A stretch of 47,555 bases of DNA, taken from NCBI GenBank assembly GCA_020444905.1, contig JAGRHQ010000005.1, forward strand, positions 1-47,555, read 5' to 3'. The position numbers and the translations under genes are program-made. The notes under the pieces were generated by a model that saw only the letters and a program-made list of their open reading frames with translations, ran no database searches and was not told the DNA's origin. How positions within the stretch are numbered: the first letter of the stretch is position 1; each line of letters starts with the position of its first letter. The DNA is from Candidatus Competibacteraceae bacterium. Lineage in GTDB: Bacteria > Pseudomonadota > Gammaproteobacteria > Competibacterales > Competibacteraceae. Positions 2,274 to 21,909 of this stretch are shown in pieces.

Positions 2274-4487
2274 TCAACCCTGGAAAGTTGGAAAATCGCG
2301 CTCGGTGTGCAGACCGCTGAGGACCCGGAAGATATGCGCCGGCATCCGATGCGGATTCAGCTCCACATAATTACGCGGCCCGTTCCAGATGTAGTGCGCG
2401 CCGGTCAGCAGATCATGCACCTGGAACGGTTGAAACGGATCGACACCCAGTTCTTCCAGGTTCAGTCCCGTCCAACCCGCCTGGGTGTAGTTAGGATCCA
2501 GATTCACCAGCACCAAGATGATGTTAGAATGGTCGACTGTGGACTTGCTGTAACAAATAATCTGATCGTTGTCGACATGATGGAGGCGCAGATTCCAATC
2601 GGATTGCAACGCCGGATTGTGCTTGCGAATGCGATTCATCAAGGCAATGAACTCGCGCAAGCTGTCCGGTCCATCCAGATCCTGAAAACCACGCTGGCGC
2701 AACTGGTATTTCTCCGAATCGAGATATTCCTCGCTACCGTGCTTGACCGCAACGTGCTCCATCATCTCATAAGCAGGCCCGTAAATGCCGTAATTGGCGG
2801 TCATGGTCGCCGCCATGAGCAGCCGGGTCATGAACATGGGCTTGCCGCCGAATTGCAGCGACTCATGCAAGATATCGGGGGTATTTGGCCAGAAGTTGGG
2901 TCGGAAGTATTCGCGGCCTGGCCCCTGGCAGACTTCATTAGCGTACTCGCTCAGTTCCTGCTTGGTATTGCGCCAAGCGTAATAGGTGTAGGACTGGGTG
3001 TAGCCGAGCTTGGCCAGGCGATGCATGACCTTGGGCCGCGTGAAGGCTTCAGCCAGGAAGATGGCGTTGGGCGTGGTTTGCTTGATGTCGTTGATCAGCC
3101 ATTCCCACATCGCAAACGGTTTGGTGTGGGGATTGTCCACGCGGAAGATGCGCACGCCCTGCTCAATCCAGAATTCGAAGATGCTTTTGATCTCTTCCCA
3201 TAAGGCTTGCCAGTCGGCAGTCTCGAAATTAAAGGGGTAGATATCCTGGTACTTTTTGGGCGGATTTTCGGCGTATTGCACGGTGCCGTCCGGGCGCCAG
3301 CGGAACCAGTCGGGATGCGCCTTGACGTAAGGATGATCCGGCGCGCATTGCAGGGCGATGTCCAGGGCGATGTCGATGCCGTGTTCCCGAGCTTTTTTCA
3401 CTAGGGCGCGGAACTCTTCCAACGTCCCCAATTCCGGCAGGATGCTCTTGTGACCACCTTCCGCCGCGCCAATCGCCCAGGGACTGCCGACATCGTCGGG
3501 ACCGGGGGTGAGCGTGTTGTTCTTGCCCTTGCGGTTGACCCGGCCAATCGGATGAATCGGCGGGAAGTACAGCACGTCGAAGCCCATCGCCGCCAGGCGC
3601 GGCAGCCAAGCTTCGCAATCCTTGAACGTCCCGTGCTTGCCGGGCACCGGGCTGCATGAGCGCGGAAACATTTCATACCACGTGCTGAATCGGGCGCGTT
3701 CATCGTCGGCGACGACGCCTAGTATCTTATCGTAACTGAGCGCCAGCGTTCGATCGGCCTGGCGGAACATGATGTGCGCCAATTCCTCGTCCAGACCTAA
3801 CTGGCGGCGGTGTTGCAATTCCTGCTCGCCGGCCAGTTCTTTGGCGCGCTGGATCAGCCACTGACCGTCTGCGCCCGCCACCCGTTGCCCCGTTTTGCCC
3901 ACCAGTTCCGCGCCGATGCGTAGCGACAGAGCAATATCTTCCGCCTGCTCCCAACGGCCCAGATCATGCCGCCAGGATTTGAAGTGATCGACCCAGGCGA
4001 GAACCGTGTATTCGTAGCGGCCAATCTCGGTTATTTTGAACTCGCCGCGCCAACGATCGTTAACCAGAAAACGCATCGGCGTTTCCTGCCAGGCGGTCTC
4101 GCCAACCTTGCGGTATTGTAGAACACAGGACAGCGCATCGTGACCATCGGTAAACGCATCCGCTTCGATCACCACGCTTTCCCCGACCGTGCGCTTGATC
4201 GGGAAACGTCCGCCGTCGATTTCCGGGCTGACGCCCTCGATGATGATGCGCTTACGGCCATCTACTGCGACCTTCACAGCTTCGGGAGTCGCCATGGGTT
4301 CCTGAACCGCTGTAGCCGTTGCCGATTTGTCAGGCGCTGCCGCGCTTTGCTCTACATCCGGCGCGGGTTCAGTCCTCTGGACAGTGGCGGCTGCTGGTTT
4401 GCTGGTAAGCTCCGGCTGTTTTTCTACCCCGGAAGCGGATTCGGGGATGGCCTGCTTTCTGTCATTCGCCACGGTCTTTTTAGGCAT
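2274..4487 (-). CDS. glgE: Alpha-1,4-glucan:maltose-1-phosphate maltosyltransferase
   Basis: GlgE transfers maltosyl units from maltose-1-phosphate to growing alpha-1,4-glucan in the cytoplasm. The protein has 737 residues. The catalytic triad is visible as Asp451 (FRVDNPHTKPF), Glu480 (IFLAEAFTRP) and Asp538 (NTPDILHES); the spacings (29 and 58) closely match those of the Streptomyces enzyme. The first 65-70 residues are a low-complexity Ala/Pro/Glu/Lys tail absent from most homologues. An internal Met at residue 65 (MATPEAVKVAVDG) would give a family-sized protein, so the start is the least certain part. It lies directly upstream of the TreS-maltokinase gene, which supplies its substrate. 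Confidence 0.95.
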   Translation of the reverse strand: MPKKTVANDRKQAIPESASGVEKQPELTSKPAAATVQRTEPAPDVEQSAAAPDKSATATAVQEPMATPEAVKVAVDGRKRIIIEGVSPEIDGGRFPIKRTVGESVVIEADAFTDGHDALSCVLQYRKVGETAWQETPMRFLVNDRWRGEFKITEIGRYEYTVLAWVDHFKSWRHDLGRWEQAEDIALSLRIGAELVGKTGQRVAGADGQWLIQRAKELAGEQELQHRRQLGLDEELAHIMFRQADRTLALSYDKILGVVADDERARFSTWYEMFPRSCSPVPGKHGTFKDCEAWLPRLAAMGFDVLYFPPIHPIGRVNRKGKNNTLTPGPDDVGSPWAIGAAEGGHKSILPELGTLEEFRALVKKAREHGIDIALDIALQCAPDHPYVKAHPDWFRWRPDGTVQYAENPPKKYQDIYPFNFETADWQALWEEIKSIFEFWIEQGVRIFRVDNPHTKPFAMWEWLINDIKQTTPNAIFLAEAFTRPKVMHRLAKLGYTQSYTYYAWRNTKQELSEYANEVCQGPGREYFRPNFWPNTPDILHESLQFGGKPMFMTRLLMAATMTANYGIYGPAYEMMEHVAVKHGSEEYLDSEKYQLRQRGFQDLDGPDSLREFIALMNRIRKHNPALQSDWNLRLHHVDNDQIICYSKSTVDHSNIILVLVNLDPNYTQAGWTGLNLEELGVDPFQPFQVHDLLTGAHYIWNGPRNYVELNPHRMPAHIFRVLSGLHTERDFPTFQG

Positions 4488-4534
4488 ACCGATGATCCTC
4501 GTTGTGCTATCTGCGACTGTTCGGGACTTGATTT

Positions 4535-4599
4535 AGGTATCAGGTATCAGGTATCAGGTTCAAAATAATCTGAAGCATGGAACCTGGAACCTGATACCT
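4535..4599. repeat. Tandem heptamer plus inverted repeat between glgE and dapD
   Basis: AGGTATC is repeated three times in tandem (4535-4555). The last copy begins a 13-base arm AGGTATCAGGTTC (4549-4561) that pairs exactly with GAACCTGATACCT (4587-4599) across 25 bases. It lies in the divergent gap between glgE and dapD. The tandem units would let the hairpin form in more than one register. There is no clear U-tract, so a terminator role is doubtful. Confidence 0.7.
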
Positions 4600-4679: not shown

Positions 4680-5498
4680 ATGACTGAATTACAACGGATT
4701 ATCGAAAATGCTTTCGAGCGTCGTTCTGAATTGGACCCCGCAACCGCCCCAGCGGCGTTGCGTGAAGCCGTCGAGGAAACGCTTGGCTTACTGGAAATCG
4801 GCCAAGCGCGGGTGGCGGAGCCGCGCGACGGCGCCTGGATCGTCAATTCGTGGCTGAAGAAAGCAGTCTTGCTCAGCTTTCGTTTGAATGACAGTGTGAT
4901 CATCCGCGACGGTTACACTAACTATTTTGACAAGGTCCCGCCCAAGTACGCTGAATACGGCGAAAATGACTTTTTGGCGGCGGGTGTCCGCGTAGTTCCG
5001 CCCGCCGCCGCCCGGCGCGGCTCCTACATCGCCTCCGGCGTTGTGCTGATGCCCTCCTACGTCAACATCGGCGCGCATGTGGACTCAGGAACCATGGTCG
5101 ATACCTGGGCCACCGTCGGTTCCTGCGCGCAAATTGGCAGGAACGTCCACTTGTCCGGCGGCGTCGGCATCGGCGGGGTGCTGGAGCCTCTGCAGGCCAG
5201 CCCTACGATTATCGAGGATGATTGTTTCATTGGTGCGCGCTCGGAAGTGGTCGAGGGCGTGATCGTGGAGCGCGGTTCGGTGGTTTCAATGGGGGTTTAT
5301 ATCGGTCAGAGCACTAAAATTTATAATCGGTTAACTGGCGAAGTGAGTTATGGACGCATTCCGGCCGGATCGGTCGTCGTCCCCGGCGCATTGCCCGCCG
5401 CCGATGGCAGTCATAGCCTGTACTGCGCAGTGATTATCAAGCAGGTGGATGAAAAAACCCGTTCCCGGGTGAGTATCAACGAGTTATTGCGGGATTAA
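4680..5498 (+). CDS. dapD: 2,3,4,5-tetrahydropyridine-2,6-dicarboxylate N-succinyltransferase
   Basis: DapD succinylates tetrahydrodipicolinate with succinyl-CoA in the succinylase branch of diaminopimelate/lysine synthesis. It has 272 residues, against about 274 in E. coli. An N-terminal helical domain is followed from about residue 100 by a left-handed beta-helix of hexapeptide repeats ([19 protein letters not shown], then [11 protein letters not shown]). The start is preceded by a TTGAGGA Shine-Dalgarno. It converges on dapB, which makes its substrate. Confidence 0.97.
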
Positions 5499-5502
5499 GG
5501 CG

Positions 5503-6370
<868 letters not shown>

Positions 6371-6465
6371 TCATAGGGAAATCATTTGGAGATAGTGGGA
6401 GACGGGTCACGCCCCACATCCGCTTTATCGGGAATACCAGAAGGAGAGGCCGCAATAACAATAAA

Positions 6466-6487
6466 GGGTTACGCGCTAACGTAACCC
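6466..6487 (-). terminator. Hairpin downstream of tRNA-Gly
   Basis: On the minus strand an 8-bp stem, GGGTTACG with CGTAACCC around six bases, begins 8 bases after the CCA end of the tRNA. It is followed by TTTATTGTTATT. The T-rich tract and position fit intrinsic termination of the tRNA transcript before dapB. Confidence 0.65.
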
Positions 6488-6495
6488 TGATGTTC

Positions 6496-6569
6496 TGGAG
6501 CGGGTGATGGGAATCGAACCCACGCCATCAGCTTGGGAAGCTGAGGTTCTACCATTGAACTACACCCGC
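6496..6569 (-). tRNA. tRNA-Gly (anticodon CCC)
   Basis: The minus strand folds into a complete 74-base tRNA beginning GCGGGTGTAGTTCAATGG and ending with encoded CCA. The acceptor stem GCGGGTG pairs with CACCCGC, the anticodon stem TCAGC/GCTGA encloses the loop TTCCCAA, and the T arm contains GGTTCGATTCC. The anticodon is CCC, reading GGG, and the sequence resembles E. coli glyU. It is the only tRNA recognised in the window. Confidence 0.97.
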
Positions 6570-6622
6570 TGCATGATGTCTTACCATGCCCGTCTGAATC
6601 TGCTTAGACTGACATGGGGAAA

Positions 6623-6651
6623 ATCCTAGCGCTAAAGCAGGCTCTTGGCAA
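6623..6651 (-). promoter_or_regulatory. Sigma-70 promoter of tRNA-Gly
   Basis: On the minus strand TTGCCA (6646-6651) and TAGGAT (6623-6628) are 17 bases apart, followed by a C-rich segment. Initiation near 6616 would leave a leader of about 47 bases before the mature tRNA end at 6569. Confidence 0.6.
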
Positions 6652-6694
6652 GATTTGCGTGTCCCGAACGGACAGGAAATCAGGACAGGCGAAA

Positions 6695-7006
6695 TCACTC
6701 GGGAATGCGGTAAGCTTCCGGATCGGGCGCATCTTTCAGCCAATTTGGCATTTTACCGCGACCGGTCCAGGTTTGATCAGGATCAGCTGGATTGCGATAT
6801 TTAGGCCGGCCTTTCCGACGTCCGCTATAGTGCAACAACTCCTCTGGCGTCATCCCAAAGCTCCTGGCTTCCTCGACCCATCGATGACGGGTTGCGTGGA
6901 TTTCATCTACCTTTTTACGTTCGATTTCATCTTGCGCTCTCTTGATCAGAATATTCAGTTGATCGAGTGAAGAAGAATCAAGAATATCGTTAATCGTATT
7001 GCTCAT
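6695..7006 (-). CDS. H-NS family nucleoid-associated protein
   Basis: This is a small (103 residues) DNA-binding nucleoid protein of the H-NS/MvaT-like group. The N-terminal half is helical and charged (NILIKRAQDEIERKKVDEI), fitting the oligomerisation coiled coil. The C-terminal half carries the H-NS DNA-binding signature: KYRNPADPDQTWTGRGKMPNWL, with the AT-hook-like TGRGKMP loop (about residues 68-92). It has its own AT-rich upstream region with a good promoter. The family usually silences AT-rich genes; the targets here are unknown. Confidence 0.9.
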   Translation of the reverse strand: MSNTINDILDSSSLDQLNILIKRAQDEIERKKVDEIHATRHRWVEEARSFGMTPEELLHYSGRRKGRPKYRNPADPDQTWTGRGKMPNWLKDAPDPEAYRIPE

Positions 7007-7046
7007 GTTTTTTGCGCACCGCTGTTAATCATTTAATTGCAGGGAA

Positions 7047-7062
7047 AGCTGGGATTCCAGCT
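7047..7062. repeat. Perfect hairpin in the hns-like leader
   Basis: AGCTGG (7047-7052) pairs with CCAGCT (7057-7062) around GATT, within the transcript leader between the -10 box at 7071-7076 and the H-NS-like start. It could affect leader stability or translation; no function is shown. Confidence 0.5.
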
Positions 7063-7070
7063 ATTTAATT

Positions 7071-7100
7071 ATTATAGAGCATTTATTTTTCTATCCGCAA
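7071..7100 (-). promoter_or_regulatory. Promoter of the H-NS-like gene
   Basis: On the minus strand there is a perfect -10 box TATAAT (7071-7076), with TTGCGG (7095-7100) 18 bases upstream. The surroundings are AT-rich. The start codon is about 60 bases downstream. Confidence 0.6.
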
Positions 7101-7205
7101 TCAATTTGCAGCCTTGTCAGTAAATTGATAAGTTGTGTTTTGATGATCGCTCTGATCAGTTATTGAATACCCTTCATTTACACTCACTCAATCATTAAAT
7201 GCGTT

Positions 7206-7931
7206 ATGACGTCGATTCCAGATGGCTTGAATTTCAATCGTGATTTGTCGCGGCCGATCCGCAGTTTTGTGCGCCGTGAAGGACGAATAACTTCAGCTCA
7301 GCAACGGGCGTTCACCGAATATTGGGAGCGATTTGGAGTCGAAGCCGACACCCGGTTACTTGATCCAGAGCGATTATTTGGCCGCTCGGCGCCATGGGTT
7401 TTGGAGATTGGCTTTGGTAATGGAGAATCATTGGCCGCCATGGCAGCCGCGCATCCAGGAGTGAATTATCTGGGGATCGAAGCGCATCGCCCCGGCGTCG
7501 GACACCTACTGCTCCGGGCAACCGAACTGCAATTAACGAATCTGCGGGTAATGTGCGCTGACGCTGCCGAGGCGCTGAAAAAACAACTGCCGGATGAATG
7601 CTTCGAACGCATTCAGATCTTCTTCCCCGATCCCTGGCCCAAGGCGCGCCATCATAAGCGCCGGTTCATTCAATCAGGAAACGTTGCATTACTGGCGCGC
7701 AAGCTCAAGCCTTTTGGGCAATTGCATCTGGCGACCGATTGGGAGGACTATGCCCTTTCAATGCTGGATATACTCAACGCGACTCCCGAATTGGCAAATA
7801 CCGTGGGTGGCAATGGGTTCACGCCGCGCCCATCTTGGCGACCGATGACCCGGTTCGAACAACGTGGTTTAAGACTCGGGCATGCCATTCGGGATCTACT
7901 ATTTGTACGCGCGGCTCCAGGAGGATATTGA
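7206..7931 (+). CDS. trmB: tRNA (guanine-46-N7)-methyltransferase
   Basis: TrmB methylates N7 of G46 in the variable loop of tRNAs using S-adenosylmethionine. It has 241 residues, like E. coli TrmB. The SAM-binding motif is VLEIGFGNGESLAAMA (near residue 70). The family signature FFPDPWPKARHHKRRF (near residue 138) holds the catalytic Asp and tRNA-binding basic residues. The C-terminus includes the TRFEQRG segment typical of the family. It follows the divergent H-NS-like gene. Confidence 0.96.
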   Translation: MTSIPDGLNFNRDLSRPIRSFVRREGRITSAQQRAFTEYWERFGVEADTRLLDPERLFGRSAPWVLEIGFGNGESLAAMAAAHPGVNYLGIEAHRPGVGHLLLRATELQLTNLRVMCADAAEALKKQLPDECFERIQIFFPDPWPKARHHKRRFIQSGNVALLARKLKPFGQLHLATDWEDYALSMLDILNATPELANTVGGNGFTPRPSWRPMTRFEQRGLRLGHAIRDLLFVRAAPGGY

Positions 7932-7942
7932 GATAGCACTAG

Positions 7943-7986
7943 CCGAATAACCTTCGGTAGACCACAATAGGGAAACTATGTTCCCT
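7943..7986. terminator. Two small hairpins after trmB
   Basis: CCGAA/TTCGG (7943-7957) and AGGGAA/TTCCCT (7969-7986) follow the trmB stop within 55 bases. Neither has a T run, so this is only a possible 3' end of the trmB transcript. Confidence 0.3.
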
Positions 7987-8071
7987 TGTGCGAACGTGGC
8001 GATGGGTTTGCGACTACCGGAAACTCCGCGTGGCCCCACCCAAAAACTGAACATGGACCGAGGTTAATTGC

Positions 8072-9340
8072 ATGTGCTTTCGACTCTTTTTGAAAAGTTT
8101 TTGCGTTTGGCGGTTGCGGTTCTGGATAGGAACGGTAGCGGTATTATGGATAGCGTCCGACCCAGTGCTGGCCCAGGAAGGCGTTGCCTGGCCCGCGCCG
8201 ACCATTGCCGCCCGATCGGCGGTGCTCATGAACCCGACCACGGGGGAGATTCTGTTCGCCAAAGAACCTCGTTTGCGCCTGCCGCCCGCCAGCACCACCA
8301 AGGTCTTGACCGCACTGGTGGCGCTGGAGCGCCTCCATCCATTGGCGCGAGCGCCGGTGAGTCCCCAAGCCGCCAGCGCCCCGCCAAGCCGGGTTGGTTT
8401 GCGCGCCGGCGAGGCGGCTCTCGTCCAGGATTTACTCTATGGGTTGATGCTCAAATCAGGCAATGACGCCGCCGAAACCCTAGCCGAGGCGGCGGGGGGG
8501 TCAATAGCCGGATTCGCGGAACTGATGAATCTCAGAGCCTGGCAAATCGGCGCGCGCGACAGCCATTTCATGAACCCACATGGTCTACCCAATGATGATC
8601 ATTATACGACGGCCTATGATCTGGCCCTGATTTTTCGTCAGGCGATGAGCCATCCTGTGTTTGCTGACATCGTGCGCACCCGCAGCGCGGCCTTGAGGAT
8701 CGAGTCCGGACGTGGCTTGTACAGTGATTGGCGTATGGTGCCGGTGCGTAATACCAATCGCTTGCTGGCGACTTACGAGGGTGCGCGCGGCGGTAAAACC
8801 GGTTTTACCTTTAAAGCCCGGCGCTGCTTTGTCGGTGAGGTTGATCGTGGCGGCGTCCGTTTAATTGTCGCCATTCTGAATAGCCCCAACAGTGGCGCGC
8901 TTTGGCAGGATGCGCGTACTTTGCTGGATTACGGTTTTGCCCGATATGGCTTGGCGCCGCCACCGCCAGTGCAACCGGAACCCACGCCGGTGATGATGGT
9001 CAGGCGCGCGCCAGCGACCCCGGTTGTGGCGCGCACGGCGGTAACCCGGGCCTTGACGGCCAGCAAGGGGAAGGGAGTGCGCACCGTATCCATCAAATTG
9101 GCTTCCCGGCAGACCAGCAAGACCGCGAAGGCTAACGCCTCTAGCAAACCGGCCTCGATAGCAGTTAAAAAAACCTCGGTTGACAAATCCGGCAGTAAGA
9201 CCGCCAGAATCGGTAAGCTAGCATCTACGGCGACGGTTAAGGCGAATAACAAGCAACCGCTGGCTAAAGCTGGGGTGGCTCGCGCTGAAAAAACCCTAGT
9301 CGCCAAGCCGCGCAAGACTATTAAAAAGCAGGGTGGTTAA
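8072..9340 (+). CDS. D-alanyl-D-alanine carboxypeptidase (S11 family) with lysine-rich tail
   Basis: This penicillin-binding D,D-carboxypeptidase would trim the terminal D-Ala from peptidoglycan stem peptides in the periplasm. An N-terminal signal/membrane segment (about residues 8-34) ends in VLAQ. The active-site motifs are complete: Ser74-Thr-Thr-Lys77, Ser129-Gly-Asn131 and Lys242-Thr-Gly244. The catalytic domain ends near residue 295. The remaining 127 residues are not the beta-sandwich PBP5 domain and amphipathic anchor, but a Pro segment followed by a disordered Lys/Ala/Thr/Ser-rich tail. That tail could bind the anionic wall or membrane, which is inference. PBP5/6 and PBP7-like enzymes are both possible relatives. 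Confidence 0.9.
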   Translation: MCFRLFLKSFCVWRLRFWIGTVAVLWIASDPVLAQEGVAWPAPTIAARSAVLMNPTTGEILFAKEPRLRLPPASTTKVLTALVALERLHPLARAPVSPQAASAPPSRVGLRAGEAALVQDLLYGLMLKSGNDAAETLAEAAGGSIAGFAELMNLRAWQIGARDSHFMNPHGLPNDDHYTTAYDLALIFRQAMSHPVFADIVRTRSAALRIESGRGLYSDWRMVPVRNTNRLLATYEGARGGKTGFTFKARRCFVGEVDRGGVRLIVAILNSPNSGALWQDARTLLDYGFARYGLAPPPPVQPEPTPVMMVRRAPATPVVARTAVTRALTASKGKGVRTVSIKLASRQTSKTAKANASSKPASIAVKKTSVDKSGSKTARIGKLASTATVKANNKQPLAKAGVARAEKTLVAKPRKTIKKQGG

Positions 9341-9367
9341 CAGTAATAAAAGCTGCGCTCACCTCAC

Positions 9368-9404
9368 CCCCTCTCCTATAAGAAGTAAGGAGAGGGGAGT
9401 TTTT
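9368..9404 (+). terminator. Intrinsic terminator after the carboxypeptidase gene
   Basis: CCCCTCTCCT (9368-9377) pairs with AGGAGAGGGG (9388-9397), then AGTTTTT. It lies 27 bases after the stop codon and also faces the convergent gltA. The sequence resembles two other intergenic hairpins in the window (29802-29824 and 36921-36965). Confidence 0.8.
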
Positions 9405-16530: not shown

Positions 16531-18219
16531 ATGCGCATTGGAGGCATGCTGGGTCCCGCGCAACTGCTGCGATTGTTGCATATCAACCGGGTCCTGGTGC
16601 GGCATGGCCTGGACGATATTGTTCTGGCTACGCATCTGTTTCGACCGATTGCCTTTCTACGGCATCTGCTGCCGTGGAACTGGATGCCGCGGCGGGAATT
16701 ACATCTGACGCGTGGTGAGCGAATTCGATTGACCCTGGAAGACCTGGGGCCGATCTTCGTCAAGTTCGGGCAAATGCTGTCCACCCGCCGCGACCTGCTT
16801 CCCGACGACATTGCCCTGGAACTGACCAAGTTGCAGGATCGGGTGCCGCCTTTTGCCGGCGATCAGGCGCGGGCGATTGTTGAAAAAGCCTATCGACAGC
16901 CGCTGGAGGCGATGTTCGCCGAATTCAATCCACAGCCCTTGGCGTCGGCGTCCATCGCTCAGGTACATGCCGCCCGCTTGTTGAATGGCCGCGAAGTGGT
17001 GGTCAAGGTGTTGCGGCCCGGCATCGAGAAGATCATTCGCCGCGATATCGAGTTGCTCTACATCATTGCCCGGCTGGCCCAGCGCTACTGGCGGGAAGGT
17101 CGCCGCTTGCGACCGCTGGAAGTGGTGAGCGAGTACGAGAAAACCATTTTCGATGAACTGGACCTGGTACGGGAGGCTGCCAACGCCAGCCAGTTGCGCC
17201 ACAATTTCAAAGATTCGCCGATTCTGTACATTCCCGAGGTGTTCTGGCCGGAAACCCGCCGCAATGTGCTGGTCATGGAGCGCATTCACGGCATTCCCGT
17301 CGGTAACATCGCCGAATTGCGGCGGCGAGGGGTGGATATGAAAAAGCTGTCCGAGCGCGGCGTGGTGGTGTTTTTCACCCAGGTTTTCCGTGACAGCTTC
17401 TTCCATGCCGACATGCATCCCGGCAATATTTTTGTGAACGCCGAGAACCCGGACGATCCGCGCTATATCGCTGTGGATTTCGGCATCATCGGCACTCTCA
17501 GTCCTACTGACCAGCATTACCTGGCGGAGAATTTCCTAGCGTTCTTTCATCGCGACTACCGGCGGGTGGCGGAGTTACACATCGAATCCGGTTGGGTGCC
17601 GCCGGAAACTCGGGTCGATGAGTTCGAATCGGCGATTCGCACCGTGTCGGAGCCGATTTTTGACAGGCCGCTCAAGGACATCTCCTTCGGCGGTTTCTTG
17701 TTAACCCTGTTCCAGACCGCCCGCCGTTTTAACATGGAAGTGCAGCCGCAACTGGTGCTGTTGCAGAAGACCCTGTTGAACATTGAAGGACTGGGCCGCC
17801 AGCTTGACCCGGAACTGGATTTATGGAAAACCGCCAAACCGTTCCTGGAAAACTGGATGAAGAACCGGGTCGGGCCGTGGTCGGTGTTGAATCGCATTAA
17901 ATACTACTTTCCGCGCTGGGCCGACCAAACACCGGATTTACCGAATCTGGTTTATGGGATTCTCAAACAGGCGCATAACGGAGACTTGACCGTGCGCTTG
18001 CAGAAACAGGAACTGGACCAGTTACGGCGCGATTTACACTGGGCTAACCGGCGCAATTTCCACGCTGCTGTCGGTGCGGCTCTGATCGTCAGCGCTGCGG
18101 TGATTTTGGGATTCGACGCCCGCGACGGGGTTGAATTTTGGCGTGCGCCGTTGCTGAGCTGGGTGCTGGGCGGGATCGGCGTGGGGTTGTTGCTCAGCGC
18201 CTGGCCAGGGGACAAGTAG
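16531..18219 (+). CDS. ubiB: Ubiquinone biosynthesis kinase-like ATPase
   Basis: UbiB is an atypical ABC1/ADCK kinase-fold ATPase needed for ubiquinone synthesis. Visible motifs are the family KxGQ sequence ([17 protein letters not shown]), the Ala-rich nucleotide loop (ASASIAQVH), the catalytic [12 protein letters not shown] and DFGIIG. Two C-terminal membrane helices lie at about residues 510-560. The reading frame is open upstream inside ubiJ; the ATG 17 bases after the ubiJ stop gives 562 residues beginning [16 protein letters not shown], close to the usual start (E. coli 546). Confidence 0.95.
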
Positions 18220-18236
18220 ATGAACAAGCCTTTGAT

Positions 18237-18256
18237 AAGACAGGATAGATTGTCTT
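18237..18256. terminator. Small hairpin between ubiB and gpsA
   Basis: AAGACA (18237-18242) pairs with TGTCTT (18251-18256) in the 46-base convergent gap. It is short and lacks a T run; a possible shared terminator. Confidence 0.35.
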
Positions 18257-18265
18257 GACAGCCGT

Positions 18266-19270
18266 TCAGGTCTCGGATTTCAAATCCCGCGCCAGTAAAA
18301 TCTCCACAGCCTGGCGTGGATTCTGACCCTGATGCAGCACCTGATCTACTTGCTCGGTAATCGGCATTTCCACTGCATGTCGCCGGGCCAATCGTAAGGC
18401 TTCCCGCGCGGTCGCTGCGCCTTCCACCACCTGGCCGATCGCCGCGAATGCGGCCTCAGCCGTTTCGCCCCGACCAATCGCCAGTCCGAAACGGCGATTG
18501 CGGGACTGGTCATCGGTGCAAGTCAACACCAGATCGCCCACTCCGGCCAGTCCCATAAAGGTTTCGCGCTGCCCTCCAACCGCCAGCCCCAGCCGGGTCA
18601 TTTCCGCCAACCCACGGGTAATCAGCGCTGCCCGGGCGTTTGCGCCAAACCCCAGTCCATCGGCAATGCCTGTGGCGATGGCCAGCACATTCTTGATTGC
18701 GCCTCCTAGTTCGACGCCAATGATATCAGTGCTGGTATAGGCGCGCACATTGGAACCGTGTAGCAGCAGCGCTACACGACGAGCCTGCTCCGCACTATGC
18801 GCCGCCACCGTGACGGCGGTCGGCAGACCGCGGGCCACCTCACCGGCGAAACTGGGACCGGAAATGACCGCCACGGGCCAGAATTCGCCCAATATTTCGG
18901 TGGCGACTTCGTGCAGAAACCGGCCACTGCCCGGCTCCAGGCCCTTGGTGGCCCAGGCCAGACCGACGGTAGCCGGCAGTACCGAATGCAAATGTTGCAG
19001 CGTCACCCGATAAGCATGACTGGGCGTCGCTATCAGCACCCAATCAACCCCGGCAACCGCGGCCTCCAGATCAATGTCCATCTCCAATGTCGCCGGAAAG
19101 GGGATGCCGGGCAAATACCGGCGGTTTTCCCGTTCCTGGACAAGCGGTGCGACTTCTTGTGGATCATGGCCCCACAGACGGACAATATGGCCATTGCGGG
19201 CTAGTAATAGCGCCAGCGCGGTTCCCCAGGAACCAACTCCCAGCACCGTGATGGTCGTGGGGGAATTCAT
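18266..19270 (-). CDS. gpsA: Glycerol-3-phosphate dehydrogenase [NAD(P)+]
   Basis: GpsA reduces dihydroxyacetone phosphate to sn-glycerol-3-phosphate for phospholipid synthesis. The 334-residue protein has the N-terminal nucleotide motif VLGVGSWGTALALLLARNGH, the conserved ATKGLEPGSG and the catalytic-Lys region VELGGAIKNVLAIA. It is the last gene of the minus-strand cluster with secB, 89 bases away, with a hairpin between. Confidence 0.97.
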   Translation of the reverse strand: MNSPTTITVLGVGSWGTALALLLARNGHIVRLWGHDPQEVAPLVQERENRRYLPGIPFPATLEMDIDLEAAVAGVDWVLIATPSHAYRVTLQHLHSVLPATVGLAWATKGLEPGSGRFLHEVATEILGEFWPVAVISGPSFAGEVARGLPTAVTVAAHSAEQARRVALLLHGSNVRAYTSTDIIGVELGGAIKNVLAIATGIADGLGFGANARAALITRGLAEMTRLGLAVGGQRETFMGLAGVGDLVLTCTDDQSRNRRFGLAIGRGETAEAAFAAIGQVVEGAATAREALRLARRHAVEMPITEQVDQVLHQGQNPRQAVEILLARDLKSET

Positions 19271-19327
19271 ACGATATCAGTCAGAAGCTGTGCAAAAACT
19301 TCTTTAGCCGAGATGTACGTCAGGCCG

Positions 19328-19348
19328 AATCCAGGGTTCTCCTGGATT
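19328..19348. repeat. Hairpin between secB and gpsA
   Basis: AATCCAGG (19328-19335) pairs perfectly with CCTGGATT (19341-19348). It follows the secB stop by 11 bases on the minus strand. Without a T run it may attenuate or protect the mRNA rather than terminate. The flank TTTCGCTACGCTCC looks like dispersed-repeat sequence. Confidence 0.6.
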
Positions 19349-19359
19349 TCGCTACGCTC

Positions 19360-19836
19360 CTAGTGCGGCGTCGAGGAGGCCGGAGTTTGCGCCGACGCCT
19401 GTTGCTGTTGCAAGCGCTGCATATAGAGCGCATCGAAGTTGATGGGATTCAGCAGTAGCGCTGGAAATCCCCCTTTGCCGATCAGTGAAGCCAATTCCTC
19501 ACGTGCAAAAGGAAACAGAATATTCGGGCAAAAGGCATGCAGCATGTGCCCCTTTTGTTGCTCGTCAAACCCCTTCAAGGTGAAGAGTCCCGCCTGCTTC
19601 ACTTCAGCCAGATACGCGGTTCGTTCACCCAGCTTGGCGGTCACCGTCAAGGTCAGCACCGATTCGAAGAGGTCCTCGGTCAGTGGCGTAGCGCCGGTTT
19701 CCAGGCGCACTTCGGTCTGCGGTTGCCACTGCTCGGTGAAGATCATGGGGGAATTGGGCGTCTCCAGCGATACATCCTTCAGATAAACTTTCTGGATTTC
19801 GAAATGTTGCTGCGGGGCTTGTTGTTCGTCGCTCAT
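19360..19836 (-). CDS. secB: Protein-export chaperone SecB
   Basis: SecB is a tetrameric cytoplasmic chaperone that keeps preproteins unfolded for SecA. The start MSDEQQAPQQHFEIQKVYLKD is fixed by homology and gives 158 residues; the longer frame upstream reads through the rhodanese end. Family motifs are YLKDVSLETPNSP, FTLKGFDEQQ and the FCPNILFPFAREELASLIGKGGFP block, the last split here for readability into FCPNILFPFARE and GKGGFP. The C-terminus is a short Gln/Ala/Ser tail. It sits between a rhodanese gene and gpsA, as in many gammaproteobacteria. Confidence 0.96.
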   Translation of the reverse strand: MSDEQQAPQQHFEIQKVYLKDVSLETPNSPMIFTEQWQPQTEVRLETGATPLTEDLFESVLTLTVTAKLGERTAYLAEVKQAGLFTLKGFDEQQKGHMLHAFCPNILFPFAREELASLIGKGGFPALLLNPINFDALYMQRLQQQQASAQTPASSTPH

Positions 19837-19868
19837 GCAAAATACCTTGTGGTGAGGGGTTTCAGGTT

Positions 19869-20300
19869 TCAGGCCTTCTTGCGGCTGATCGGCAGGCTGG
19901 CGTCCTGCCAGGCATTCAGACCGCCGCTCAGGCTGTGTACATGGGTGATTCCGCTTTTCTTGAGCAAGGCACAGGCGGATTGCGCGGCGGCGCCACTGCG
20001 GCAATAGACGATCACCGGTTTATCGCCTGCCTTGGCCAACTCGCTAATCCGGTCTTTGAGCATTGCTGACGGAATATGCCGGGCTTGCGGAATGTGGCCG
20101 CCCTTGTACTCCCCGGCGTCACGAATATCCACGACCCAGGCATCCTGGTCGTTAATCAGCCGCAGCGCTTCGTTCGGGTTGACAGTGGTAATTCCACGCA
20201 CCCGGTGCAGAATCTCGGCGCCCATCAACATCCCCAGAATAGCGAATGCCGCCGCAAACAGCAGCCAATTCTGCAAGGCAAACTCAGTAAAATCACTCAT
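19869..20300 (-). CDS. Membrane-anchored rhodanese (YibN-like)
   Basis: This is a sulfurtransferase-type protein with one N-terminal membrane helix (about residues 10-30: LLFAAAFAILGMLMG) and a cytoplasmic rhodanese domain. The active-site loop is YCRSGAAAQSA, with the persulfide-carrying Cys near residue 100, and the domain also has the VVDIRDAGEYKGGHIPQA motif. YibN-type genes are typical neighbours of secB. Here it also follows a DUF2892 gene and an ArsR regulator, which recalls E. coli YgaP, a rhodanese fused to a membrane domain. Confidence 0.92.
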   Translation of the reverse strand: MSDFTEFALQNWLLFAAAFAILGMLMGAEILHRVRGITTVNPNEALRLINDQDAWVVDIRDAGEYKGGHIPQARHIPSAMLKDRISELAKAGDKPVIVYCRSGAAAQSACALLKKSGITHVHSLSGGLNAWQDASLPISRKKA

Positions 20301-20315
20301 ATCAAGTCAACTTTC

Positions 20316-20549
20316 TCAACGCATCGCGCAACCTGCCGGGTCACCGGCGCTCTTAACGCCCAGCTTCCAGAGGATCAGTTCCGCCGGGCAAAATCGGGTA
20401 AAACCGCTTTGAAACAGGTTCAGCCCGACAAAAGCGGTAAACCACAGCCAATAGCTGCTGTGATAAAGCGGACTGGCCGGTGCGCCCAGTAACAAAGAAA
20501 TCAGGACGAAAGCGCCCGCCATGATTCGAATGATTCGTTCGCTATTCAT
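20316..20549 (-). CDS. DUF2892 inner-membrane protein (YgaP membrane-domain type)
   Basis: The start MNSERIIRIMAG gives 77 residues; the frame is open further upstream but the family begins here. Two hydrophobic helices (about residues 8-24 and 31-48) are followed by LNLFQSGFTRFCPAE, a motif typical of DUF2892. In E. coli YgaP the same domain forms the C-terminal membrane part of a rhodanese. Here the two are separate genes 15 bases apart. The conserved Cys and a second Cys near the C-terminus could take part in sulfur handling, which is inference. Confidence 0.85.
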   Translation of the reverse strand: MNSERIIRIMAGAFVLISLLLGAPASPLYHSSYWLWFTAFVGLNLFQSGFTRFCPAELILWKLGVKSAGDPAGCAMR

Positions 20550-20578
20550 AAAAAACCTCGATTGAATTGCGTGGCAAT

Positions 20579-20884
20579 CTACAAATTTCGCGTGCAAAAC
20601 ACATCACGCATCATCTCGATCAACCGCAGCGTCCGGGCGTCTCCTACCCGGTAATAAACCCGGTTGGCGTCCTTACGACAGGCCAGAATGCCCTTATCGC
20701 GCAGAATCGCCAAATGCTGGGAGATATTGCTTTGGGAGGTGCCGACCTGTTCGACGATATCCTGGACGCTGAATTCCCGATCACTCAGCGTACACAGAAT
20801 TTTGAGACGCAATGGATGGGACATCGCCTTCATTGAGCGAGAGGCTCTTTCGATGTCATCATCGCGGGCAATCAGGCTGTTCAT
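20579..20884 (-). CDS. ArsR-family repressor, persulfide-sensor type
   Basis: This 101-residue winged-helix regulator has the ArsR signature MKAMSHPLRLKILCTL, a recognition-helix region TSQSNISQHLAILRDKGIL and the wing CRKDANRVYYRV. It lacks the ELCVCD metal site of ArsR/SmtB. Instead Cys31 and Cys97 are 66 residues apart, the same spacing as the cysteines that form the polysulfide bridge in BigR and SqrR. It heads the minus-strand cluster with DUF2892 and rhodanese, which supports sensing of reactive sulfur. YgaV is the likely E. coli counterpart. Confidence 0.85.
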   Translation of the reverse strand: MNSLIARDDDIERASRSMKAMSHPLRLKILCTLSDREFSVQDIVEQVGTSQSNISQHLAILRDKGILACRKDANRVYYRVGDARTLRLIEMMRDVFCTRNL

Positions 20885-20970
20885 CGGGAGATTACCCGCG
20901 TTGGCATGGCCCTATCTCAGACTGACCTAATCTCATTACGCGCCATAAAGCGGGTTATTTTCCAGAAATT

Positions 20971-21003
20971 TGATAAATCAGCATAACCGAATATAGCGAT
21001 ATT
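20971..21003. promoter_or_regulatory. Candidate operator upstream of the ArsR gene
   Basis: Two short palindromes lie in the AT-rich part of the gap: TGATaaATCA (20971-20980) and AATATagcgATATT (20990-21003). They are about 90-120 bases from the ArsR start and are candidates for autoregulation. No convincing promoter hexamers could be assigned. Confidence 0.35.
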
Positions 21004-21162
21004 GAGAAGCGCCCGCCCATGTCGCCGACATATTCTTCCCAGGAGGCGACTGGCGAAATCGCCGGTCTGGAGGTATGATCGCTCAGCGAAAGGCTAGGAA
21101 GATTGCAGCATTAAAAACTTAAAACCCTAATACTTCAGCATTCCCACATCAGGAGGCATTGC

Positions 21163-21909
21163 ATGTACAAACTTGTGCTCATCCGCCACGGTGAAAGCCA
21201 GTGGAACATGGAAAACCGTTTCACCGGCTGGGTGGACGTTGATCTGTCTGACAAGGGCCGCGAGGAAGCGAAAAAAGCAGGCCAGACTTTGAAAAAGGAA
21301 GGTTATATCTTCGATGTCGCCCACACCTCCGTACTCAAACGCGCCATTCATACGTTGTGGACGGTACTGGATGAACTGGATCAGGCATGGATTCCCGTAC
21401 ATCGGAGCTGGCGGCTCAACGAACGGCACTACGGCGCCCTGGCTGGCCTGAACAAATCGGAAACAGCGGCTAAGCATGGCGAAGAACAAGTCAAAATCTG
21501 GCGGCGCAGTTTTGACATTCCGCCCCCAGCGCTGGAAGCAAGCGACCCGTTGCACCCGAGCAATGATCCACGTTACGCCGAACTGGACCCGCGTGTGCTG
21601 CCTGGCACCGAAAGCCTCAAGCTCACTATCGACCGGGTGCTGCCCTACTGGCATGATGTCCTGGTGCCGACCATCCGTTCCGGCAAGCGGGTCGTGATCG
21701 CCGCACACGGCAACAGCCTACGGGCCCTGATCAAGTATTTAGACAACCTGTCAGACGAAGCCATCGTCGCGTTGAACGTCCCGACCGCCGTGCCGCTAGT
21801 CTATGAGTTGGACGCCAACATGCGACCCATCAAAAATTACTACCTCGCCGATCCCGAAGAGCTGAAAAAATTGATGGACGCCGTCGCTAATCAGGGCAAA
21901 GCGAAGTAA
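21163..21909 (+). CDS. gpmA: 2,3-bisphosphoglycerate-dependent phosphoglycerate mutase
   Basis: GpmA interconverts 3- and 2-phosphoglycerate in glycolysis and gluconeogenesis. It has 248 residues. The phosphohistidine motif is [18 protein letters not shown], near residue 10. The other active-site segments are [14 protein letters not shown] and [14 protein letters not shown] strong AGGAGG lies upstream. It is divergent from the ArsR cluster. Confidence 0.97.

Follow-up and report, generated by a model that had tools for sequence, protein, structure and literature searches.

The window analysed here (positions 1-47,555 of contig JAGRHQ010000005.1 of a Candidatus Competibacteraceae bacterium) raises the question of what a small ArsR-family regulator may sense and control at the head of a row of genes that leads to a protein-export chaperone and a glycerol-3-phosphate dehydrogenase. 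The features concerned are the following:

21163..21909, plus strand: gpmA, the divergent neighbour of arsR (context gene)
21051..21079, plus strand: conserved block interpreted as the promoter of the divergent gpmA, with TATGAT at 21074-21079 (intergenic alignment)
20977..21009, minus strand: candidate arsR promoter/operator, CTTCTCAATATCGCTATATTCGGTTATGCTGAT (conserved in the gpmA-arsR intergenic alignment)
20579..20884, minus strand: arsR, ArsR-family regulator of 101 aa with an ATG start and Cys31, Cys69, and Cys97; proposed thiol-switch autorepressor
20316..20549, minus strand: small membrane protein of 77 aa, DUF2892/YgaP-like_TM (PF11127), an optional member (Pfam and YgaP alignment)
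19869..20300, minus strand: YibN-type membrane-anchored rhodanese of 143 aa with active-site loop CRSGAA (profile match and E. coli alignment)
19360..19836, minus strand: secB, protein-export chaperone of 158 aa from the ATG at 19836 (profile match)
18266..19270, minus strand: gpsA, NAD(P)H-dependent glycerol-3-phosphate dehydrogenase (profile match)

All five genes from arsR through the DUF2892 gene, yibN, and secB to gpsA lie on the minus strand, and the gaps between them measure, in this order, 29, 15, 32, and 89 bp. The preliminary description of this DNA had placed a DUF2892 gene and then a rhodanese gene after the regulator and had let the same strand run on into secB and gpsA, and the domain matches and coordinates agree with it on both points. 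Its view that the secB-gpsA cluster begins with a thiol-switch ArsR of the BigR/SqrR type is also borne out, by a conserved arrangement and a matching operator-like element. We consider it likely, with a probability of about 0.68, that ArsR is a dedicated thiol-switch autorepressor of this type, acting on yibN(-grxC)-secB-gpsA as a single operon and probably released by sulfane sulfur.

The regulator belongs to the ArsR/SmtB superfamily (PF01022, 52.1 bits against a cut-off of 22). BigR of Xylella fastidiosa (3pqj) is its first phmmer match among PDB sequences (E 1.5e-19), and the columns of BigR Cys42 and Cys108 coincide in that alignment with Cys31 and Cys97. The translated frame confirms the BigR-like spacing of 66 noted earlier; Cys69, which had been passed over, is a third cysteine. 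According to the accessible parts of the respective papers, the same spacing separates the pairs of BigR (42/108; PMC5823870) and of Hyphomicrobium denitrificans SoxR (50/116; PMC10451225), while the pair of E. coli YgaV is 31/98 (PMC9774250). Both Cys31 and Cys97 are invariant in all 110 fetched ArsR loci (100 distinct ones after removal of 10 duplicates), while position 69 varies (Ser in 69, Cys in 28, Ala in 9), which argues that the spacing is more than chance; most of these loci were picked by ArsR similarity, and the sample therefore leans to close relatives. The two cysteines are also kept in 17 of 17 further divergent or paralogous copies (49-71% identical), a set from which L209 (G230), being without a match, was left out. 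An AlphaFold model (pLDDT 81.5) places Cys31 within the helix of residues 24-33 and Cys97 directly after the helix of residues 83-96. These positions (helix 2 and the end of helix 5) are those that the conserved pair occupies in sensors of the BigR, SqrR, and YgaV type. The top Foldseek matches of the model are HlyU, in the first place, followed by BigR, NolR, SqrR, and YgaV. The regulator reaches 84 bits on the NCBIfam BigR equivalog NF040642, whose cut-off is 155, and is thus BigR-like, yet not BigR by the NCBIfam standard.

The rhodanese gene had been regarded as one half of a split YgaP. The part of this claim that concerns the DUF2892 protein can stand, since the latter resembles the membrane part of YgaP, albeit weakly (34% over 50 aa). 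The rhodanese, however, aligns end to end with E. coli YibN, membrane segment included (32% over 143 columns, 74 bits), whereas its alignment with E. coli YgaP (55 bits) covers the rhodanese part only, and for these scores and the yibN-grxC-secB-gpsA gene order we reject its assignment as a YgaP half. YgaP is a fusion of rhodanese and DUF2892, whereas in the window these are two separate frames; a YibN has an N-terminal membrane segment, which we read from the sequence here, followed by a rhodanese domain, and is encoded 5' of grxC, secB, or gpsA. In E. coli K-12, gpmM is divergent from yibN-grxC-secB-gpsA-cysE, there is neither an ArsR nor a DUF2892 gene in that row, and ygaV-ygaP lies elsewhere. 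The better YibN match and this ancestral order indicate that the rhodanese of the window is a YibN that has stayed at its old site, and the DUF2892 gene, found in 32 of the 100 distinct loci, is an optional addition to the old yibN-grxC-secB-gpsA operon. In many relatives grxC lies between yibN and secB, a place at which it is missing in the window. Where the window has gpmA as the divergent gene, locus L013, like E. coli, has one of the gpmM/gpmI type.

The catalytic cysteine of YibN is present in 97 of 97 loci linked to ArsR, versus 12 of 16 loci without it. E. coli K-12 is among the losses: its YibN (L157, 7585-8016) has Asp at the catalytic position and the loop VVDGSGMQC, with no Cys at the aligned position.

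Among 96 relatives, 50 carry an ArsR orthologue (at least 69% identity), and in 47 of these secB follows on the same strand 0.5-1.9 kb downstream. The three misses are due to a contig end (G002), the loss of secB (G078), and an insertion (G065). The 1.1-Mb genome G078 (L190, G078:C4:75500-84500, 2595-4574) has lost secB and kept ArsR-YibN-GrxC-GpsA, which points to yibN-grxC as the core target; a full DsrA is also present in this genome. In G065 (L191, G065:C10:56500-68500, 4968-9387), genes that by eye resemble those of an efflux pump lie between ArsR and YibN; of those among the 50 relatives that yielded both genes, it alone has the ArsR-YibN linkage broken. YibN lies downstream of ArsR in 97 of the 100 distinct loci, the other three ending within 371 bp of ArsR. 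SecB was found in 90 and GpsA in 78 of them, many misses being locus ends; a real exception is L078, with ArsR-YibN and no SecB within 5 kb. Thus yibN, and not secB, is the constant partner of ArsR, as it stays with ArsR where G078 has lost secB and where L078 has none nearby.

ArsR is dispensable in places. It is absent from G006, G008, G012, G015, G018, and G022, truncated in G011 by the loss of its N-terminal half, and internally deleted in G019 (L215, G019:C67:17500-23500), where the central DNA-binding part is lost in frame, the N- and C-terminal ends remain, and DUF2892, YibN, and the operator-like site are kept beside them. This is a natural loss, ArsR being retained by the other sampled members of the genus of G019.

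An alignment of 20 gpmA-arsR intergenic regions of the window's family shows two conserved blocks, of which the one on the arsR side is CTTCTCAATATCGCTATATTCNGNTATGCTAAT. In the window, this candidate operator comprises TTCTCA (21008-21003), a 17-bp spacer, and TATGCT (20985-20980), with the inverted repeat AATAT-CGCT-ATATT (21003-20990) inside the spacer. It occurs once in the window, where none is expected, and no second operator-like copy was seen in the gpmA-promoter block 21051-21079. At no more than 3 mismatches, the family pattern occurs once in the window's own genome, for which reason a second target there is rejected, and in 15 of the 96 relatives (own genome included), with 0 matches of the reversed control. 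Distant families have a second version, ATTATTGTATAATGTTTTATTAATAAA, in which the dyad ATTAT-TGT-ATAAT takes in a TATAAT box; used as a class-wide pattern, this version gives a single match in each of 16 genomes out of 274 (control 0), and 15 of the 16 matches lie directly before ArsR-YibN, the exception being L148. Either version is present at no more than 7 mismatches in 64 of 99 distinct arsR upstream regions, versus about 0.1 expected from shuffles, and neither of them in the remaining 35. Within the Competibacteraceae, operator matches at 0-8 mismatches accompany ArsR or its remains, among them recognisable remnants in G019 (6 mismatches) and G011 (8 mismatches), and the six ArsR-less members have no operator, their best matches, at 12-17 mismatches, being at chance level.

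These observations are consistent with the following mechanism, in which invariance of the cysteines, fold, linkage, operator-like element, and association with sulfur oxidation come from the sequences, and repression, ligand, and mode of action are taken by analogy from BigR, YgaV, SqrR, and SoxR, which are reported, in the text available from PMC5823870, PMC9774250, and PMC10451225, to repress when reduced and to be released by a sulfur bridge. With Cys31 and Cys97 reduced, an ArsR dimer would sit on the AT-rich dyad over its own promoter (-10 region or spacer), much as BigR is reported to occupy the -10 region of the operon that encodes it (PMC5823870), and would keep arsR-[DUF2892]-yibN-[grxC]-secB-gpsA low. 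A rise of sulfane sulfur (persulfide or polysulfide) may join Cys31 and Cys97 by a disulfide or polysulfide bridge, and the bridged dimer would then leave the DNA and allow expression of the operon; release of BigR by H2S/polysulfide has been reported (PMC5823870). The first and constant target would be YibN, the membrane rhodanese, in which the catalytic Cys is intact, and secB and gpsA, on the same strand, would follow. Read-through into the latter two is suggested by gene spacing and by E. coli: the gaps are short and free of terminator-like sites, yibN-grxC-secB-gpsA is described as one operon there (PMC12282094), and deletion of secB is reported to be polar on gpsA (PMC8082313).

As far as the relevant text of PMC9774250 shows, YgaV-YgaP of E. 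coli is an autorepressed operon with a membrane rhodanese. YgaV is 37% identical to the regulator of the window. The operon differs in that its rhodanese and DUF2892 form one protein and that secB and gpsA are not part of it, whereas in the window type YibN, which is not the YgaP rhodanese, and DUF2892, when present, are encoded separately. Rhodobacter capsulatus SqrR and H. denitrificans SoxR and sHdrR are reported as two-cysteine ArsR repressors with a sulfane-sulfur response and a tie to sulfur oxidation (PMC10451225, PMC12423496), but they control sulfur-oxidation genes directly. The site given for SqrR, ATTC-N8-GAAT (PMC9774250), is unlike the dyads before arsR of the window type.

A link to sulfur oxidation is seen at the level of genomes. 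The class-wide draw comprised 274 genomes, of which 130 have an ArsR orthologue by the cut that we used; this cut left out nine distant matches, among them G218 and G109, which later proved to be yibN-linked. DsrA was counted in 91 genomes at E<=1e-90 (five of them fragments below the curated cut-off, with the fragments of G256 and G275 not counted) and SoxB in 112 (one, G137, below the cut-off). ArsR is present in 86 of the 91 DsrA genomes; 44 genomes have ArsR only, 5 DsrA only, and 139 neither, and these four counts become 87, 45, 4, and 138 when G218 and G109 are moved to the ArsR carriers. For SoxB the corresponding numbers are 96 with both, 34 with ArsR only, 16 with SoxB only, and 128 with neither, and for DsrA or SoxB they are 106, 24, 17, and 127. 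With one genome taken per family (158 genomes), DsrA and ArsR give 52, 22, 3, and 81 (p 2.6e-20), which is a coarse control of kinship that ignores deeper shared ancestry. Among the 130 carriers, 24 genomes, that of the window included, lack both SoxB and a DsrA over the cut-off, which indicates that dissimilatory sulfur oxidation is not required for ArsR.

Several other explanations have to be set against a sulfane-sulfur switch of the whole operon. ArsR might control only arsR, DUF2892, and yibN, with secB and gpsA isolated by a promoter or promoters of their own, for example inside yibN, and kept as neighbours through the old gene order. This we consider rather doubtful, although the yibN-secB order is found without ArsR in E. 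coli and in all 15 ArsR-less SecB loci, the gap before gpsA measures 89 bp, and the persistence of ArsR-YibN in G078 and L078 shows that secB is not a constant target. Against such isolation are the short distances from yibN to its upstream neighbour (15 bp) and from secB to yibN (32 bp) and, in the available text of the two papers cited for E. coli, the single operon and the polar secB deletion. No terminator-like site was found in any gap of the arsR-gpsA cluster (the scan gave 4 versus 4.0 expected: two inside the DUF2892 frame, one in gpsA, and one on the other strand). A scan of 18000-21400 also found no sigma-70 consensus, but it missed the proposed arsR promoter itself and thus says little on an internal secB promoter. 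The secB-gpsA gap contains a hairpin with perfect 8-bp arms (19328-19348, minus strand; AATCCAGG...CCTGGATT), which was rejected as an attenuator or terminator (gap z -1.68, no T run, a single copy in the window).

The signal might also be other than sulfane sulfur. If ArsR responded, in the manner of HlyU or RexT, to general oxidants such as H2O2 or disulfide stress, yibN-grxC would be a thiol-redox operon; this fits with HlyU as the top fold match, with the grxC and thioredoxin-like genes in the cluster at many loci, with the lack of SoxB and DsrA in the window's own genome, and with reports that BigR and HlyU cysteines can be oxidised to sulfenic acid (PMC5823870, accessible part). The strong association with DsrA and SoxB and the rhodanese with intact catalytic Cys that always follows ArsR speak against it, and we judge it unlikely. 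Far less probable is that the protein is an ArsR/SmtB repressor that senses metal(loid)s and has been mistaken for a persulfide sensor: the score of 86 bits (cut-off 55) on the generic metalloregulator model NF033788 would favour it, but this model describes the HTH common to the whole superfamily, the CmtR equivalog gives 45.9 bits, far under its cut-off of 150, no set of His/Asp metal ligands was seen by eye in the last helix, just two cysteines are invariant and lie in different helices, and the cluster has no metal-handling gene. That the neighbours are coincidental, with ArsR regulating elsewhere and kept here by chance synteny, is hardly credible given the secB linkage in 47 of 50 relatives and an operator-like element found genome-wide essentially only before arsR; we found no evidence in its favour.

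Outside the window's family (55 loci), the median pairwise identity of ArsR is 0.87, versus 0.44 for YibN, 0.51 for SecB, and 0.55 for GpsA. Constraint at the DNA level was rejected as the cause, as fourfold-degenerate sites are equally scrambled (identity 0.34 in ArsR versus 0.37 in YibN, SecB, and GpsA), and selection is therefore on the ArsR protein. Next to its neighbours (44-55%), an ArsR conserved at 87% is exceptional.

The type of regulator is already known, but no report of a yibN-secB-gpsA target, of one conserved operator, or of a near-coextension with Dsr was found in the open-licence literature that we searched, preprints excluded; the available portions of transcriptome papers on Thioalkalivibrio and Allochromatium have nothing on the ArsR-yibN-secB cluster, and those of the secB/gpsA/grxC/yibN papers PMC8082313 and PMC12282094 do not treat an ArsR. 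Contacts of E. coli YibN with SecYEG and YidC have been reported (PMC8082313, PMC12282094), which makes a link from sulfur to the envelope sensible, though unproven, and our comparisons suggest that sulfur-oxidising bacteria, the main carriers, may couple their envelope to the chemistry of sulfur. Tentatively, and with the odds somewhat against so broad a statement, about half of the gammaproteobacterial families, nearly all of the families with Dsr sulfur oxidation, may hold the envelope operon linked to YibN/YidC-SecYEG, with its membrane rhodanese, glutaredoxin, SecB, and GpsA, under a one-operator sulfane-sulfur switch, which would raise inner-membrane protein insertion, export, and phospholipid precursor supply when sulfur intermediates accumulate; the rhodanese activity of YibN would then be ancestral and lost in the switch-less E. 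coli. One operator per genome that links reactive sulfur to envelope biogenesis would be an unusually simple circuit. As E. coli YibN is a YidC/SecYEG partner whose rhodanese domain is without explanation, a repressor on yibN in sulfur oxidisers, together with the catalytic Cys kept there, offers a testable lead on its role.

Cluster genes were not found by tblastn at nine paralogue and five more distant ArsR loci (46-59% identical), several of which adjoin, by eye, a two-component-like pair. Four loci (L181, L182, L186, and L189) hold a second ArsR of the two-cysteine type, 52-56% identical, beside large membrane sensor-like and receiver-like proteins (by eye), and may represent a separate sulfur- or redox-related unit.
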